Below are positions 1,928 to 62,843 of a stretch of 64,000 bases of DNA, one piece after another. The notes under the pieces are model-generated. The model had not been told where the DNA came from. It saw nothing but the letters and a program-made list of their open reading frames with translations, and searched no databases. Location: the NCBI GenBank assembly GCA_947034885.2, contig OX344756.2, positions 10,437,598-10,501,597 on the forward strand, written 5' to 3'. Both the position numbers and the translations under genes were made by a program. Each line of letters starts with the position of its first letter. Position 1 is the stretch's first letter. The stretch is from Thuidium tamariscinum (taxonomy: Eukaryota > Streptophyta > Bryopsida > Hypnales > Thuidiaceae).

Positions 1928-4105
1928 CCTCTAAATGCCCAAGGCTTGTTTGGAGGTTTTTGAAATTTGCACTAAATTGAACAAAGTGCCAACATTTTGA
2001 TAAGTTGTATCAATTTTTTTTTAATTGTAACCATACAAATTCAAACTCAACATATTAGAGACCACATAGGAAAAGAAAACACAACAATATCACTTATAGA
2101 TTGAAAGATTATAGTGTTTGACCATGAGGGTGTTAAAGTAGCAAAAATGATGTGAAGTCTTTCTATACTCTTTTCACAAGTCAAATCTGAAAAAATTGGT
2201 GACCAAAAAAAATATAAGGGTGAAGAACCAAACATACATAAGTCCAATCAATTTACAGCTTTTCAAAATCTACTCTATAATTTTTATAAATGAATTTTGA
2301 GTGTGATTTTTTCTCCAAGATCTAGTCGGTATTTGAGGCTCGATATGTGAGTATTTGACTAACCTGTAAAAATATTTTACTCATGTTGCCTTCTATAAAG
2401 TTTTTATTGTTATTCTGAGACAAAATTTTTAATGTAATTTTAGCCTAGTAAAATGGGGTTTGGAGAACAAGTCTACTATAAATTATACTACAATTGCCTA
2501 ACTTGTTTCTTGAAGAAATGAACTCAAAATATAAAATAGTGTTCAAGTATTAGGAAAGAAGAAAAAATGATGTTTGCATGATATTTATGACAATAGTGCA
2601 CTAATCTATAGAAGATGAAATTTTAGCCATGTATTGTATTTAAGGTGAATCAATATAAGTTTCCAAACTGATTTTATAAGTATTTGTAAATACTTTTCTA
2701 AATTGAATTCAAAGATGATCTCTATTCATAGTGTATATCCTAATATATTTCTAAAGAATATACTAAAATATATTTTATCACACATCTAAAATTTGTTTAA
2801 AATTCTCTTAATGTGCACAAGCATTTATGTACCATATCTTCTATAGGTCAGAAGTATTGTTACAATGTATATAGGGTGAAGCATTTGTTAGGAAGTATGT
2901 GTCATATATTCTTAATGTAAGATGAGAGAGGTATCAATTTGCAATTAGAAATGTCACAAGTAATAATAGCCTTTGGTCTTTAAGGCCCTTAAGAATTAAT
3001 ATAAATTACAAATATTGCTTATGAGAGTTTTATTATAAAGAGGTATTTATAGTTTTTGACTTATTCATATAGTGTTTAATTGATATGAACAAAATAACCT
3101 TGGGGTTTTCTATTGTACTTCAGCGATATGCAACCAAAAAGTAGCCAACATGTAACTTTCCATGACAATTTAGGAATGGAAAATGTACTTTGATGTACCA
3201 AAAGTTATCAATTTATAAATCATTATTAGCAAAATGCCTTGGTTATAGGTCTCATCCTTTTAGAGATAAATGCTTATTATAGTAGGATACTTTCAAGACA
3301 TATTTTACAAACATTAAAATTTGAATACACACTTCTAAATCAAAGTCCTAGTGAATTCTTTGTATAGTAAAATACAAGTGTTGAATGAGCATTTGACTAT
3401 GTACAAAAAACAAAAATACTTCAATGCAGAAGTTTTCAACCCCAAAAAATTATAGATGTTCATCTCAAAGTTTGTCTTTATATTCACTTCATACAAATTT
3501 GTTGGAATTAGTCCACTTTCAAACTTGTTCTTAAAATGCCAATCCATCATTACGATATCGACATCCAAAATCTAGGCAATGAATAGAGAGGTTTTAATGG
3601 CTATTTTTACACAAATATTTTCATTCATTCAAATCAATGCTTGCCACTTTTTTTTTAAACTTATAATATAATAATATTATGGTAGATAATATATATTTAT
3701 AATTATATAAACAAAAATACACAAAAATTAAAGAAAGGATTTAGGCTCCAAGCAAAGGGATTCCTTTGGAAATATACTAAAAATGATTGAATTTGTCAAT
3801 AAGAGATGGGAAGTCCATCAAATAGTTTGAATTCCAACTTGCTTTTATTAGTCTCATTAAATAATAAAACAAATCACAATCCAAATACCACTCAATGAAG
3901 CATCATTTTTTACAAGATGGAGCATTATTCTTTATTTAATTGGAATTCAAACTACACATTTCTATGTTGGCTCAAAAATTTCTCAATAAATGTCTGAATA
4001 TTCTTGTAAAGAAACTAGAATGAAACAAATCAAGTTGGGGGTATTGCTCTCATATAATTCATTTTAATCATGTATAAGCTACTTTGTAGAATAGTTGGAA
4101 TCTGG
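1928..4105. other. AT-rich gene-free stretch starting with an orphan TTAA-type terminus
   Basis: The first bases (CCTCTAAATGCCC after the TTAA at 1924-1927) resemble the start of another TTAA element, but no matching right end was found. The rest is AT-rich. Short ORFs around 2047-2247 and 3335-3568 (minus) have no recognisable domain and look random. Confidence 0.4.
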
Positions 4106-4962
4106 CCCCTAAAGTCCTAAATTATGTTTTTTAGCAATGTAGAGATTTCAAGAAGCTCAATACAAATGGAGTTTTTATTTATTTTCCTTAAAGATTTTCA
4201 TACAATAGTTTTCCAACAAGTTTCTTTAAAGACCAACAATTTTCATAACATTTAACAACATGGTTAAGACATTATAGTATGATATGTAGTTTTTATTTCT
4301 TAGCAAATAGCCTAGGCAACTGAAAAAACCTTTTTTTAAATAATTATTTTCTTAAATAAAAATTTGAGAATTGGTTTATTAAATTTATATGTATATAGAA
4401 AGCTTTGAATCATTATATTTTGATGAATGAGATGAAATTTATGACTAGTTCTAGTTTGGGGTAGTTCACGGGTAATTATAGAATCTCTACTCTACAAAAA
4501 AGTTTGAATTTTTTTATTTAATTCAAATTTTAATATGTTTTAGAAATAGTTGAAAATTTTTTATTAAAATATCACAAACATTGGGATTTTCATTTTTCAT
4601 TTCCATAAATAAGTTTCTCACAATTTAGTATTTTGAACCAACTTGCATTGAAGAATGAATTCAAAGAGTAACCACCATTTGAATATTTTTTCATACAAAT
4701 GTAACCTTGTGAAGTGTAGCTACCCAAGTTTTCAAAGGAATAAAAAAAGGATTTTTGTCAATTCAAATGCTAATATCTTGCAATCCAAACAATGAAAATT
4801 TATGAAGTTTTTTCTACATCTTTTCAAACCACCTTACTACAAGTTCTTAGAGTTACATATGTCAAAAAATGTTTTTTTTCTAGAACTTTGAACTTGTACT
4901 AGAAATTGTAGTTTTGGAGCTTTCTTTGGTGAAAGTATAATAAAAAAACTTGAGAGGCTTAG
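4106..4962. mobile_element. Diverged copy of the 0.9-kb TTAA element
   Basis: This stretch aligns along most of its length with 59761-60687. Shared landmarks in the same order are CCCCTAAAGTCC at the left, a segment containing AAAGCTTTGAATCATT, one containing CATACAAATGTAACCTT, one with CTAATATCTTGCAATC, and a GGTGAAA stretch near the right end. The left flank is CTGG rather than TTAA and the right terminus is worn, so it is an older copy than the pair near 60 kb. No transposase is encoded. Confidence 0.6.
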
Positions 4963-5814
4963 CTAATTAAATTTTACATTAAAATCATTAGCAAAGAATT
5001 TGGGCCTCTAGAATTGCTCCACTTTTGCATTAGCAACTAAATTGAGGTGTTGAATTTCTTTTTGAATTGTAAAACAATGAAATAAAGTGAAATTTTTTTT
5101 TCATTTTTCATTTTTTTAGTATTTCAATGTGACCAATGTTCATCTACATAGGAACAAGATTTTTAAAAATAATTTTAAATTATAATATAATATTTTTCTA
5201 TATTTTTAAATTTTGGCCAACATTGTTCACTACTGAATTCAATTTCTCATAGAAAAGATGTCCTCTAGAGACTCTATCAGTCTCCTAATACCTTAGATGA
5301 ACAAAATACTTTCAAGTAAACATTAAGAAATTAAATAGCCCTAGTTGCCTTAGTATTGTTACAGGATAGTTTGAATGGAGGTATAATATAAGATTGAAAG
5401 TTGATATTGTTTTTCCATTAAACTATATTATTACAACAGTGAAGTTACTGACACATAAGAGGTTTTTTCAAGGGTGACAAGAGACTGTTTCAGCCTTATT
5501 TCCCAATCTATATACTAGCCATTGTTGGTCAAATTAAAAATTAAAAAATTAAAATTTTTAAAATAAATACAAATAAAAATAAAATAACAAACTTTAAAAA
5601 CATTGAAAAAATATTTTTAATTTTTAATAAAATATTATTATTTAATGTGGCAATCTCTGTACCACATCAGATCACCTGCTGGGACAATTTTTAGCGAGTT
5701 TTCATAGTCCAAGAACTCGTAGTCTCCCAACAAGGCCAGAAAACCTCTTATGATTACTGGCAATTCTTAGTGCATAGTGACAATGGATAGTATGCATATA
5801 GTTACTACCTTTGT
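4963..5814. other. Gene-free; weak similarity to other intergenic blocks
   Basis: AT-rich sequence without genes. The part around 5630-5760, with paired ATGTGG and CCACATCA motifs, weakly resembles 41330-41425 and 36380-36450 and may be a fragment of a dispersed repeat. The surrounding A/T-rich runs make the limits uncertain. Confidence 0.3.
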
Positions 5815-6375
5815 AGGGTACATAGTTGCAAACTGTACATCCGAAAGAGGCAATAACTGCACTCACAAAAAAATTTAAATTTTAAAATTTTTCACCTTAA
5901 TCCCATGTCCCCTCTCTTCCCTTCCTTCTTTAAAATATTTTTAAATTTTTAAATTTTAATCTTTTCATAACCCTCCCTCCATCCCTCTTATAATTTCTAA
6001 AGACAAGTGCAACTGACAAACAATATGGGACAATCATCTCATATTCCATATCCCATATCTCATATTTGTATTCGTACTTCAATAATATATCGTATCTATA
6101 TCTATATCCATATCAAAATCCGTATCCATATTCATAAAAAATACTATATCTATATTCAGTATTCATTTTTATATTCGTATTCAACTATATTAGATGGCTC
6201 AAATTAAATCTCACAAGATCAACGACTTGTGATTTTTTGTGAAATCAAAGGTGATAAGCAAGGTAAGCATTGTTTTTCAAAAACAATCAATGGCCTTTAA
6301 ATTTTTTGAGAGGGGGGGCAACTAATACAAACTAGAGGTGACAACCACTACACCCTAGATAGTGAGACTTCTATC
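5815..6375 (+). repeat. Dispersed repeat with CATATC-type simple-sequence core, copy 1
   Basis: The order of parts is: a segment containing GAGGCAATAACTGCAC, a pyrimidine-rich CCCTCC stretch, CAATATGGGACAA, about 130 bp of degenerate TATCCATATTCGTAT-type hexamers, GGCTCAAATTAAATCTCAC, AACAATCAATGGCC, then a G-run and GGCAACTAATA. The same order recurs at 6415-6890, 39690-40240 and, inverted, at 51110-51680. The Tyr-rich ORFs across it are products of the simple repeat and not genes. Confidence 0.6.
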
Positions 6376-6414
6376 ATCATGCACTTAGAATTTTAATTAA
6401 TTATTTAAAAAATT

Positions 6415-6890
6415 TAAACTCCCCCCAGAGGCCCGGACCCCTCTAGGTTTAAATAAATTTTTATTAATTAAAATTAATTTCTTACCCTTCCACCCTATTT
6501 GTAATTTTTTGAACCAAGTTAATTTGACAATCCATATGGAACAATCAAAATTTTGTAATCCATATTCGTATTCATATTTGTATCCGTATCCGCTTCCATA
6601 TCCATATTTGTACACATATTTTCAAATCAAATATTTGTATCCATATTTTGATATTGTACTTGCATTTTGTATTCCTATAATATTTGTATCCATATTCATA
6701 TTCTGAATTCATATTTGGACGGTTCATATTAAACCTCACAAAGATCAATGGCTTATAATTTTTTGAGAAATCGACAACATTTTTTAGAAAAAAAATCAAC
6801 AACCCAAATTTTTTGAGGGAAGGAGGGGCAACTAATGGCAAACCAAGATGTGTGCCCCCACTTTTGAGGCCATAGTGAGGCAATATCACA
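6415..6890 (+). repeat. CATATC-core dispersed repeat, copy 2
   Basis: This is a shorter copy placed in tandem just after copy 1. It has a C-rich stretch at the start, then CAATCCATATGGAACAATC, the hexamer core, GGTTCATATTAAACCTCAC and GGGGCAACTAATGG at the right side. It lacks the left part seen in copy 1. Confidence 0.6.
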
Positions 6891-7548
6891 ACAATATACT
6901 TGCACTAATATTGTATTGAGATAGCAACTTTGGCTTAAATTAAATAAAAAAATAATGCCAAAAAATCATTCTATTTTTTAAATAAGACAATCAAATCTAC
7001 AAATAATTATATAGGTGGTTTACAAAAAATTCATTAAAAATCCATTGAGTTAAATACCAATTTGTCATTTGACCAACTACAATGAAGATGAATCTTGATG
7101 TCAAAATGAAGGTGTTACTTCATTTACATTTGGTCAAGATGAAGGGCGGCGAGAGGATTTTTTCTAATAAAATTTATTGTCCATTAAGAATCTTCAAAGA
7201 GTATGGGATAATTTGAAGATGGGAACTTAAATACTCATTGTCAAAATTTAGGCATTGCAATCATAATGTAATTTCAAACCTCATTTTGGCACAATAAAGT
7301 AATTTTTGCTGGAAAACTTTGAACTAAAAAAAGTTGGAAAATCAAAATAAATTTCATCTTCAAAAAATCACTTTTTGTGATTTTGAGACTTCAACAAAAA
7401 GTTATGGATAAAATCGTGAGAGGATATCTAGAAAAGTCAAAAGAACTATCCCTTCCAACTTCTTTATGAATTTTTTCTGTAATTTTTTATTAGAGGCTCA
7501 AAATCTAAAATAGATTTTTGAAAATGGAGGTTAGCTTGATTTTCAATA
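6891..7548. other. AT-rich gene-free stretch
   Basis: Nothing could be supported here: no domain-bearing ORF and no clear inverted or tandem repeat. Confidence 0.4.
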
Positions 7549-7778
7549 TTAATCCTTAAATTTCTAGGAGGGCATTTTGTGTTCGATGAATGATAGAGAA
7601 TAATTTTGTATAGGAAAGAAGTACAACTATTCTATTTTTGGAATTTTGTATGAAATGAAGAGATCTTCTACAATACTTTGACTTTCAATGAGTGCTTTTG
7701 GATTTTTTAACTAATGATTCTCAAGGTACCAAAATGGATGATTTCCGTGGTTACAAGTCCATCCTTTTTAAGGATTAA
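7549..7778 (+). mobile_element. 0.22-kb TTAA MITE (small family), copy 1
   Basis: TTAA (7549-7552), then TCCTTAAATTTC; the right end AAGGA is followed by TTAA (7775-7778). The 222-bp body aligns with 41431-41656 in the same orientation, with 41661-41882 in inverted orientation, and loosely with 38870-39090. Shared inner motifs include TTGTAGAAGATCT (on the complement), AATGGATGAT-like and TCCGTGGTTAC-like stretches. It has no coding capacity. Confidence 0.6.
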
Positions 7779-18365: not shown

Positions 18366-18600
18366 AGCCAAAAACATAGTTTCCTAGGGAAGGGCCAGAT
18401 TTTTATTCTAAAAGGCCAAAAACGCAGTCTTCTAAGGAAGGGCCAGATTTTAATTGTAGGAGGCCAAAAACGCAATCTTCTAGGGAAGGGCCAGATTTTA
18501 ATTGTGGGAGTCCAAAAACGCAGTTTTGCAGGGAAGGACCAGATTTTAATTGTGGGAGGCCCCAAATGCAGTTTTGCAGGGAAGGACCAGATTTTGACGA
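18366..18600. repeat. 48-bp tandem array, about five units
   Basis: Units begin near 18366, 18414, 18462, 18510 and 18558. The shared core is GGCCAAAAACGCAGTCTTCT, then AGGGAAGGGCCAGATTTTAA. The period is a multiple of three, so the array stays open in several frames on both strands and gives 16-residue peptide repeats (GQKRSLLRKGQILIVG type). A degenerate shorter unit precedes it from about 18330. Confidence 0.85.
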
Positions 18601-23404: not shown

Positions 23405-23720
23405 ATTTACAAGAATCAAACGTTAGCCAAAAAGATTAGGTGAGTAGTGAATCAACAAACACATTCACAAGAATCAAAAACACAATTAGCCCAAAAAAAT
23501 GGGATGAGTAGTGAATCAACAAACACACTCATAAGAATCCAAAACACAATCAGCCAAAAAAAATGAGATGAGTAGTAAATCAACAAACACACTTATAAGA
23601 ATCCAAAACACAATCAACCAAAAAAAATGGGATGAGTAGTAAATCAACAAACACACTCATAAAAATCCAAAACACAATCAACAAAAAAAAAATGGAGTAA
23701 ATAGTAAATCAACAAATATG
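23405..23720. repeat. 64-bp tandem array, about 4.5 units
   Basis: Repeats with period 63-64 bp, marked by GAGTAGTAAATCAACAAACA at about 23443, 23507, 23571, 23635 and 23697. It lies just beyond the 3' end of the hAT transposase remnant. Confidence 0.85.
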
Positions 23721-41426: not shown

Positions 41427-41660
41427 TTAATCCCAAAAGGCTAGTGTAGACACTCATTGTGTAATGGATGATAGAAAGTTTTTCTATGTCAGACACAAGT
41501 GTGCTTGTTCATCTTTGGTATTTTGTGCAAAAAAGGAAAAATCTTACACAATATTTTGACCTCCAATGAATATCTTCATTTTATTTTAAGTAGATGATTC
41601 ACAAGGTTTCATAAATTAAGGATAATTTCCACGGTGGTTGGCCCGTCCTTCCAGGGTTAA
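41427..41660 (+). mobile_element. 0.22-kb TTAA MITE, copy 3 (226 bp body)
   Basis: TTAA 41427-41430, then TCCCAAAAGGCTAGTG; the right end GGCCCGTCCTTCCAGGG is followed by TTAA (41657-41660). It aligns with 7553-7774 in the same orientation. Its right TTAA is also the left TTAA of the next element. Confidence 0.65.
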
Positions 41661-41886
41661 TCCTTAAACGACGCGGGGGGTGATCCAGGAACCATCTTTT
41701 GTGAAACCATGGGTATCATTGGAATTAAAAAATCCAAAAGTGCGCATTTGAAGTCAGAAAATTGTAGAAGATCTTCCTTTTCCACCCCTAATTCCGAGGA
41801 TGAATACTTACATTTCTGTCCTCTACAGCAAAAAGGCTCGCCTGTTCATCGACCAAGAAACGACTCCAGCGTCGTTTAGGGGTTAA
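41657..41886 (-). mobile_element. 0.22-kb TTAA MITE, copy 4 (222 bp body), inverted
   Basis: TTAA (41657-41660) is followed by TCCTTAAACGACGC. The right end GCGTCGTTTAGGGG is followed by TTAA (41883-41886). The inverted termini match over 14 bp with 2 differences, plus the TTAA. It aligns with the 7553-7774 copy in the opposite orientation, sharing TTAAAAAATCCAAAAG and TTGTAGAAGATCT. It shares one TTAA with its neighbour and ends next to the kinase TATA box. Confidence 0.75.
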
Positions 41887-59756: not shown

Positions 59757-60691
59757 TTAACCCCTAAAGGACCAACATGCCTTTTTTTTGGCAACATAGT
59801 GATTTTGGGCGGGTACATGTAGCTAGAGATTTTCATATTTTGGAACCAAACTTTAATAGAAGGTGTGGACGAGGAGTATCTTCCAAGCCCAACAATTTTT
59901 GTGACTTTTGACTACATGGTTGAAAAGTTATCGCACAAAACGTTGTTTGTTTCTCAACTCGGGCAGTTTGGGGAGATCAGAAAAAATCACTTTTTTTGGA
60001 AATAAAAATTTGAAATTGGTTTTATTGATTTATATATACATGTAAAGCTTTGAATCATTCCATTTGGATTAATGAATCAAAAGTTATGAAGGATTTTAGT
60101 TTGTGGGTAGTTATGGATTCTCTTCTCTAAAATAAACTTTGAAATCCTTTATTTTACTCAATTTTCAATATTTTTGAAAAAAAATAAAAAAATAGGGTGA
60201 AGATTGTTTATTACAACATTTGAACCATTGGGATTGGCATTTTTCAATTCAATAAATAAATTGTTACCATTTTTGTATTTTGAATCATTCTCTACTTCTT
60301 TCTTCTTACTATTTTTTTTGTACATGTTGTACAATTCCAAATGATATGAAAATTTTCAAGCATGTAGCCAACTTGAATTGGAGAATAAATCCAAAGAGTT
60401 GAAACCATTTTGGACATTTTTTCATACAAATGTGACCTTCTGAAGTGCAGCTGCCCGGGTTTTTGCAGTGGAAAAAAAATGATTTTTGTAACTTCAAACA
60501 CTAATATCTTGCAATCTACATGGCGGAAATTTCTGAAATTTTTTCTACATCTTTCCAAACTAGTGCACTAAGAGATCTTATGGTTACATGTATCAAAAAA
60601 TGTTTTTTTTTAAAAATTTGGTAGGTGTCCTAGAAATGACAGTTTTGGAGTAGTTTTGGTGGAAACATAGTTGCGGTCCTTTAGGGGTTAA
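59757..60691. mobile_element. 0.9-kb TTAA element, best copy (927 bp body)
   Basis: TTAA (59757-59760), CCCCTAAAGGACC (59761-59773) ... GGTCCTTTAGGGG (60675-60687), TTAA (60688-60691). The inverted termini are perfect over 13 bp, or 17 counting the TTAA. The TTAA-CCC start is the hallmark of piggyBac-superfamily elements. There is no transposase: short ORFs inside are unlike any known domain. It aligns with 4106-4962 and with 61373-62276. The perfect ends suggest it is the youngest of the three. Confidence 0.75.
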
Positions 60692-61368: not shown

Positions 61369-62280
61369 TTAACCCCTACATGCAAAAATTGCATTTTTTT
61401 TGGCAATATAGCGATTTTAGGCAATTCACTACAAATGGAGTTTTTTTTGTTTTTTTTGTTTTTTTGTTTTCAAAGTTTTTACACAATATGCATCCAAAGA
61501 GTAGCTTTAAGGCTAATTCTTTTTCATAATTTTTGACTACATGGTTAAAAAGTTAATGGATGATATGTGATTTTGTTGCTAGACAAGTTGCCCGAAATGA
61601 TCAAAAATCATTCATTGAACATTTTTGAAGAAAATGATGAAATTGTCCAAAAAATAAGATTGTCCTTAATTTTCTCATAACAAATCCAAATGGATTGAAT
61701 CAAAGCTTTTCATGCCAACAAAATTATAATCTTTGAGAAGAAATTTTCATTTTTCTTAAGACTAAAATTTCCAAATGAAAATTTGTTGCCTATTCATACT
61801 TATTTTGAGCTTATTTGGGCATAACTTTTGTTTCCAAGCACTAATTGAAAAAAAAGAATTATACTCCCATCAAGCCAATCACTTTTTCTATCTTCAAAAT
61901 TTTTTCTAAAAATCAAGATAAAAATTGGGCCTATAAGGACTTGCCTAGAACCTCTAAAAGAACAATCATGGCAAATTTTGTTGAAATGGCAGTATTCCAT
62001 ATGCCATTTTTTAGACTCTACAATCTAAATTGAAAGTTGTCATCTAGGATAGGTATAGATTTCAAAAATCTATGACATATTTAGATTTCTACTTGTGTGA
62101 ATGCATGGTTTACAACATCTTGGACAAATTTAGATTTTGGACATCTACAACACATATAGATTTCCAAGATTTGTGACAAATTTAGATTTTAGATTGCACG
62201 TTTTAAACTATAAAAAGCGTCAAAATAATGGAATTTTGCTATTTCAATGAAATACTCCATACTAGTCCTTTAGGAGTTGA
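61369..62280. mobile_element. 0.9-kb TTAA element, copy 3 (904 bp body)
   Basis: TTAA (61369-61372), CCCCTACATGC at the left; the right end is GTCCTTTAGGAG followed by TTGA (62277-62280). The left part shares ATTTTTTTTGGCAATATAGCG-like and CTACATGGTTAAAAAGTTA motifs with the copy at 59757, and CTACAAATGGAGTTTTT with the copy at 4106. The right TTAA has one change. It is non-coding. Confidence 0.65.
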
Positions 62281-62518
62281 AAGCTAAAGGTTGCTATGCC
62301 TCACATTGTCTAAATAAGTTCTTGACTCCAATGGCTATGCCAAGACTAACATAAGTTTTTCACCTCTGCCCTTGTCTCAACTTTCATTTGAAAACTATAT
62401 GTAAAGATATAGATGGTATGGGTACATTGGAGTGAGTACATGCTCTTTAGCTAGTTGTCTCATTGAGAAGGGCCTTGTTGAATATTGACCTTCAGGATTC
62501 CTGCCCAATTGAATGTAA

Positions 62519-62843
62519 GGTAGAAGGCTCTTAAATGGAGCGGGTTCTAAAATGGTGCCCTACCTTAAATGTACAATACTTGTACATGTTTCTTTTTCAT
62601 AGCCTTCAATAGTGTACTAACAATGTACATTTTAGCTAGGGCACCATTTTAGAGCCCTATGCCCTTTCAACTTCAAAATTTGATAACTAATTCCACAAAG
62701 CTCAGAAAAATATGAAACGACTTGGGTTAGATGTCAATTCTACTTGTCTTTCAAAGAAAATTTATTGAAAAATATTTCTAGAAGTTTTACCTCCCTGAAA
62801 TTCTGTTTCAGCCCTTAGATGGTCCATTACAGGACCTCTTACC
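62519..62843. mobile_element. GGTAG-ended TIR element, copy 2
   Basis: The left end GGTAGAAGGCTCTTAAATGG and the right end GGACCTCTTACC are inverted copies with mismatches; both are flanked outside by GTAA/TTAC. The right 180 bp aligns with the element at 21933-22222. Confidence 0.45.

Follow-up and report, generated by a model that had tools for sequence, protein, structure and literature searches.

The 64-kb stretch of Thuidium tamariscinum DNA analysed here (hereafter the window) contains at 59757-60691 an element of 0.9 kb bounded by TTAA. The question raised by this locus is whether a land plant possesses a piggyBac-like source for such elements or whether another superfamily has converged on TTAA; Sola, for example, also exists in a TTAA-type form. 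The biology of piggyBac and the tools derived from it come mainly from animals. The TTAA bounds and perfect 13-bp inverted ends described in the initial annotation were confirmed. The two arms of the 935-bp element (59757-59773 and 60675-60691) are 17 nt long and 100% complementary, each comprising a TTAA target-site copy read from the sequence (59757-59760 on the left, 60688-60691 on the right) and a 13-bp terminal inverted repeat located by inverted-end comparison (CCCCTAAAGGACC at 59761-59773 on the plus strand; 60675-60687 on the minus strand). The perfect repeat lies inside the range of 12-19 bp given for piggyBac in PMC2872659, and the element starts with CCCCT, so that CCCT lies one base in when compared with the CC[C/T]T terminal motif of the same source. 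CCCTT is the start of a 5,615-bp family of transposase elements, and CCCTTAAAGGACC copies are also present in the genome. No stop-to-stop frame of at least 120 aa overlaps the window element, which hence has no DDE_Tnp_1_7 frame of its own and was classed as non-autonomous and of piggyBac type. Full-length relatives at four loci (L005, L006, L033 and L041) are 74-84% alike to it. Scans of the 64-kb window for tRNAs and with Rfam at the gathering cut-off found nothing.

Further copies were found in the window. Words within one mismatch of TTAACCCYTAAA occur 18 times (4 of the 18 exact) against 1.54 expected, and none of 100 shuffles reached 18. It had been proposed that elements of several sizes share one terminal logic, and this held in part. 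The 591-bp element at 1337-1927, with imperfect inverted ends of the CCCTTAAAGAACC type, and two 230-bp elements, at 7549-7778 (TCCTTAAA ends) and 41657-41886 (TCCTTAAACGACG / CCCCTAAACGACG ends), have TTAA on both sides. However, three of the four ends of the 230-bp copies read TTAATCC and one reads TTAACCC. The diverged relative at 61369-62281, whose left end has one mismatch to the 12-mer, kept its left TTAA but has a decayed right one, and the copy at 4106-4962, a decayed relative of the 0.9-kb family matching the main element at 78% over 300 bp and 71% over 315 bp, has TTAA at neither end. Two tandem repeats were also noted in the window, at 18367-18595 (4.8 copies of a 48-bp unit) and 23425-23716 (4.6 copies of a 64-bp unit).

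The genome searched comprised 363 Mb in 19 contigs. It contains six matches to a LEAFY-type domain (PF01698, best E 1.6e-27) and four matches, all at a single place, to a radial spoke protein (PF04712, best E 3.5e-35). LEAFY is characteristic of land plants and the algae related to them, and radial spokes indicate motile sperm; the host was accordingly taken to be a seed-free land plant. Collecting genomic copies by the 17-bp terminus, as the initial annotation had suggested, was productive: 5,053 exact copies of TTAACCCYTAAAGGACC (2,600 + 2,453) were counted against 0 + 0 for the reversed control. When TTAA was not required, the 13-mer CCCYTAAAGGACC gave 2,949 + 2,807 copies (reversed control 4 + 5), and TTAA precedes 5,053 of these 5,756 words (88%). 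The numbers for TTAACCCYTAAAGG were 4,811 + 4,732 (reversed control 2 + 4). Among the 100 TTAACCCYTAAAGG places listed, all on C1 up to 4.25 Mb, there are 18 plus/minus neighbour pairs within 2 kb, and 15 of these span 918-939 bp. A sister subfamily of 0.92 kb, represented by L043m, has the same 13-bp ends; among the best 40 scored of 2,759 candidates, 30 places including the query are identical over the first 112 bp, and such identity is of recent date.

Transposase genes of the piggyBac type are abundant in the same genome. The PF13843 profile search gave at least 116 matches (116 scored of 659 candidates), all above the cut-off and with a best E of 5.7e-80, and no match in any of 14 control genomes; 74 of the 116 matches have no internal stop. 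Twenty transposase loci were examined; they were chosen among the best-scoring matches, with a single family making up ten of them, and so do not form a random sample. At 18 of the 20, the domain sits inside a TTAA-bounded element of 4.95-5.62 kb whose inverted ends are CCC-type and for the most part imperfect, and the ends of the elements carrying PF13843 read TTAA-CCC(C/T/A). A compact element was missing at two loci, L030 and L037. For L030 a candidate span of 7.9 kb was found, whose leading end bases match at 13 of 13 positions; its relative L037 gave no element, and by comparison with L030 the left end would fall beyond the examined stretch. The 13-bp ends of L030 (CCCTAGAAGGACG) look nearer to the insect piggyBac end than those of the other elements here.

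One family is that of 5,096 bp, for which all ten copies examined are TTAA-bounded and all ten flanks are unlike. In comparison with the tenth (reference) copy, six copies show no difference, two show one and one shows two. At least one full-length family thus looks to have been mobile very recently. The 22-base left end of this family has 13 exact copies in the genome, and the six exact ends of the 5,615/5,616-bp family are those of the three examined elements; therefore, neither family left thousands of short copies with its ends. In L041, a 5,096-bp transposase element (2546-7641) was inserted exactly at the TTAA bounding a 930-bp window-type short element (1620-2549), so the two share one TTAA.

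In the 5,096-bp family the open frame specifies a protein of 1,009 aa, with about 500 aa ahead of the DDE domain and PF13843 at residues 519-918 (E 5.7e-79). Its best match in PDB is piggyBat (9c0f, E 3.2e-27), a distant relative, followed by T. ni piggyBac (6x67, E 1e-22), and there was no other PDB match at E <=0.001. PiggyBat is a bat element, and in the alignment with it the aspartates are paired in three motifs. By our own equation, these three motifs would correspond to the DDD triad D268/D346/D447 named in PMC7351741. The C-terminus of the translations appeared Cys/His-rich by eye, and scanning two of the proteins against Pfam at E 0.001 gave no zinc-ribbon match. In the 5,096-bp element, the beginning of the 1,009-aa frame is overlapped by another open frame, which is 280 aa long (L040 6390-7232, minus strand). 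T. ni piggyBac (6x67/6x68) resembles the elements here in its TTAA target, its homologous DDE domain (E 1e-22), its left palindrome near bp 25 and its CCC-type short inverted ends. In contrast to it, the elements here reside in a land plant, carry the approximately 500 aa before the DDE domain (5,096-bp family) and have palindrome sequences that differ between families; they are also longer, 4.95-7.9 kb against 2,472 bp (PMC10803768).

The short elements were linked to one of these transposase elements through their subterminal sequences. The 113 bases behind each 13-bp end of the short elements were compared with those of seven transposase elements, L030 not being among these, and z-scores were based on single-base shuffles. 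On the right side the transposase element of L038 matches all seven short elements (z 10.4-23.2; 13.2 for the window element), as against z <=2.7 for the six other transposase elements. On the left side it matches three of eight short elements (z 18.1-21.9), the window element (z 0.9) not being among them, and the top left z against the other transposase elements is 4.1 (L002m with the 5,615-bp family). A right-end motif at 60632-60646 (minus strand), 42-56 bp from the end of the window element, is common to L038 and other 0.9-kb copies, and it starts at bp 42 in both L038 and the window element. The ends of L038 (CCCCTAAATGCCC / CCCCTAAGTTCCC) are related but not identical to those of the window element.

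As to the suggested search for a DDD transposase flanked by these ends, L038 has ends of a related type and the shared right subterminal sequence, and CCCCTAAAGGACC ends flank the transposase domain at none of the 20 loci examined. No recognisable end was seen in L049, L050 and L051, the 401-451 bp beside other transposase clades. Searches with both ends of L043m gave, in a non-exhaustive check of the best 40 of 2,759 and the best 40 of 2,534 candidates, no place tied to a transposase, and some of the places listed pair at 0.92-0.93 kb. DNA-level BLAST of the window elements tested gave no match in the interior of the examined transposase elements; hits at these loci were confined to the flanks. 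Of 884 candidates in a search with the L038 protein, 59 matches were listed; most of them cluster at about 96-97%, 60-68%, 51-58% or 49-52% identity, and a single one has 45%. On the minus strand at C1:4796302-4797903 lies a relative of 53% identity, and 3.4 kb from it, on the expected side, stands an exact CCCCTAAAGGACC end (C1:4801275-4801291). This locus is the best lead for an exact-end partner.

Target duplication was assessed at empty sites, all of those compared being paralogues and not alleles. The 922-bp CCCCTAAAGGACC element at L043 (8409-9330) has an empty-site paralogue in the window (62515-62726, minus strand) with a single TTAA at 62531-62534, and 199 of 220 columns are identical; the 5,615-bp element of L035 aligns to the same empty site, again at TTAA, with 184 of 221 columns, and both of these alignments (L043m and L035) run only 16 bp past the junction. 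The 5,096-bp copy in L039 lies in a tandem array whose adjoining empty unit reads CTAA (295 of 369 columns). The joined flanks of the window element, with one TTAA, match C8:457110-457290 (L052) along their entire length; the site there reads TTGA, gaps lie close by, and 135 of 184 columns are identical. Other matches spanning the junction of these flanks, known as search matches alone, are C8:477527-477709 over the full length and C10:13010156 and C6:8486448 over shorter lengths. A different duplication at empty sites had been named in advance as evidence against piggyBac, and none was seen among the paralogous empty sites. At these there is either one TTAA or a sequence differing from it by one base (CTAA in L039, TTGA for the window element), the latter in two of the three main comparisons. 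Three further candidates were not counted: L007 and 7549-7778, whose junctions show 28-38 and 8-14 gap columns, respectively, and no evident TTAA, and L046 as an empty site for L043m, where TTTC stands at the site. The array of L039 (1551-8234) shows one site in three states: it is empty (CTAA), holds a short element whose length is about 0.73 kb and whose right TTAA has decayed, or holds the 5,096-bp element.

Between a plant piggyBac source and convergence, the two explanations posed at the outset, the former is supported by the at least 116 PF13843 matches, the TTAA-CCC ends, the subterminal match to L038, the empty sites and the 5'-CCC termini. It is thus very probable that the window element belongs, as a non-autonomous member residing in a land plant, to the piggyBac superfamily. 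In the proposed scheme of TTAA cut-and-paste, a full-length element, with the L038-type clade as the most likely source, would produce a piggyBac transposase supplied in trans, which would bind the 13-bp ends and the subterminal sites. The element would then be cut out via TTAA hairpins, and insertion at another TTAA would duplicate the four bases. The hairpin scheme of TTAA cut-and-paste was taken from work on piggyBac (PMC7351741). We infer that these copies were mobilised in trans by the L038-type transposase, or by one closely related to it, and that they would have been excised seamlessly.

This reading has two variants, neither of which excludes it. In the first, several transposase clades, and not one partner, move the short elements. 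The 59 listed matches of the L038 protein fall into several identity groups, and the 53% relative on C1 lies 3.4 kb from an exact CCCCTAAAGGACC end; however, one end is known there and it could stand beside the gene by chance, and we consider this variant somewhat unlikely. In the second, the window-type short elements would be relics left by a piggyBac clade that has ceased to mobilise them, with other families still moving. The five window-type copies are only 70-84% alike pairwise, and the 13 left ends of the 5,096-bp family and six ends of the 5,615-bp family are few. On the other hand, the sister subfamily of L043m has the same 13-bp ends and 30 identical 112-bp places among the best 40 of 2,759, and fossil status was judged unlikely. 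That another TTAA superfamily (Kolobok or TTAA-type Sola) made the short elements, the piggyBac genes being unrelated neighbours, is very improbable: Kolobok, a transposase superfamily of its own, also yields TTAA duplications and a transposase partner with the exact ends was not recovered, but Kolobok termini are 5'-RR (PMC9587614) and those here 5'-CCC, the 0.9-kb elements share subterminal homology with the piggyBac-encoding L038, and TTAAGG pairs occur in the sequence examined only at L033 and in the overlapping L034/L035 stretch.

PiggyBac has been reported as one of the superfamilies present in every group surveyed, including land plants (PMC4438587 Table 2), and 1,230 piggyBac fragments amounting to 122 kb were counted in Ceratopteris, the C-fern (PMC6890710). 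It is also mentioned among plant transposon or MITE superfamilies (PMC10004981, PMC10794571); the available text of a moss paper (PMC10619864) uses 'piggybacking' in another sense only. The land-plant surveys (PMC4438587, PMC6890710) give, in their available portions, presence calls or counts without intact elements or ends. In the available portions of the open-licence literature, the scope here (subscription papers and Repbase reports lying outside it), no intact near-identical piggyBac elements or short partners were described for a land plant. The initial annotation had called piggyBac transposases rarely reported from land plants; in the portions available, piggyBac is known there and sparsely described, as counts, presence calls or mentions. 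Piggybac in land plants is a known kind, and no claim of a first report is made. Since such elements are known in plants in this form, they may sit unclassified in plant annotations. A close counterpart of the short elements is found in coral CMITEs, which likewise show TTAA duplication, CCC termini and a link to piggyBac, with about 1,600 copies estimated in one species (PMC2872659); their length is about 100 bp, whereas most of the elements here measure about 0.93 kb. The full-length copies, being nearly identical, speak for recent movement in a land plant and offer native plant material for testing.

The left ends of the transposase elements showed a common geometry. The left end of T. ni piggyBac contains a palindrome at bp 17-33 on which the transposase C-terminal domains form a dimer, and the minor groove is narrowed near bp 25 (PMC7351741). 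Six transposase elements with five end types have unlike left-end palindromes, and their pooled pairing is 0.71 at centre 25.0 against a mean of 0.26; none of 2,000 shuffles reached 0.71, a test that is partly post hoc because the pairing range and centre interval were chosen after the palindromes had been seen. Taken singly, four of the six have another centre scoring equal or higher. No pooled peak at bp 25 was found for the right ends. Among the short elements, L043m and L002m have strong left palindromes with centre 24.0, and pooling of 17 short-element ends placed the top centre at 20.5, with no peak at bp 25. The window element itself has a weak left subterminal palindrome, TGCC-8-GGCA (59778-59793), centred 25.5 bp from the end, with 0.57 paired and a better centre at 84.5. 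A broader reading is offered tentatively, with a little less than even confidence: this seed-free land plant may hold a living piggyBac population of several transposase clades, each with its own left palindrome in a fixed geometry (13-bp end, spacer of about 3 bp, palindrome centre at bp 24-25), in which the transposase C-terminal domain and the palindrome would form a co-evolving recognition code on which thousands of short elements depend, making it an endogenous and possibly still active plant piggyBac system. Unlike palindromes at one position in different families make this rule of end recognition directly testable. As a further observation on left ends, a 749-bp short element in L004 (769-1517) has two left-type ends, as if it had arisen from an inverted duplication.
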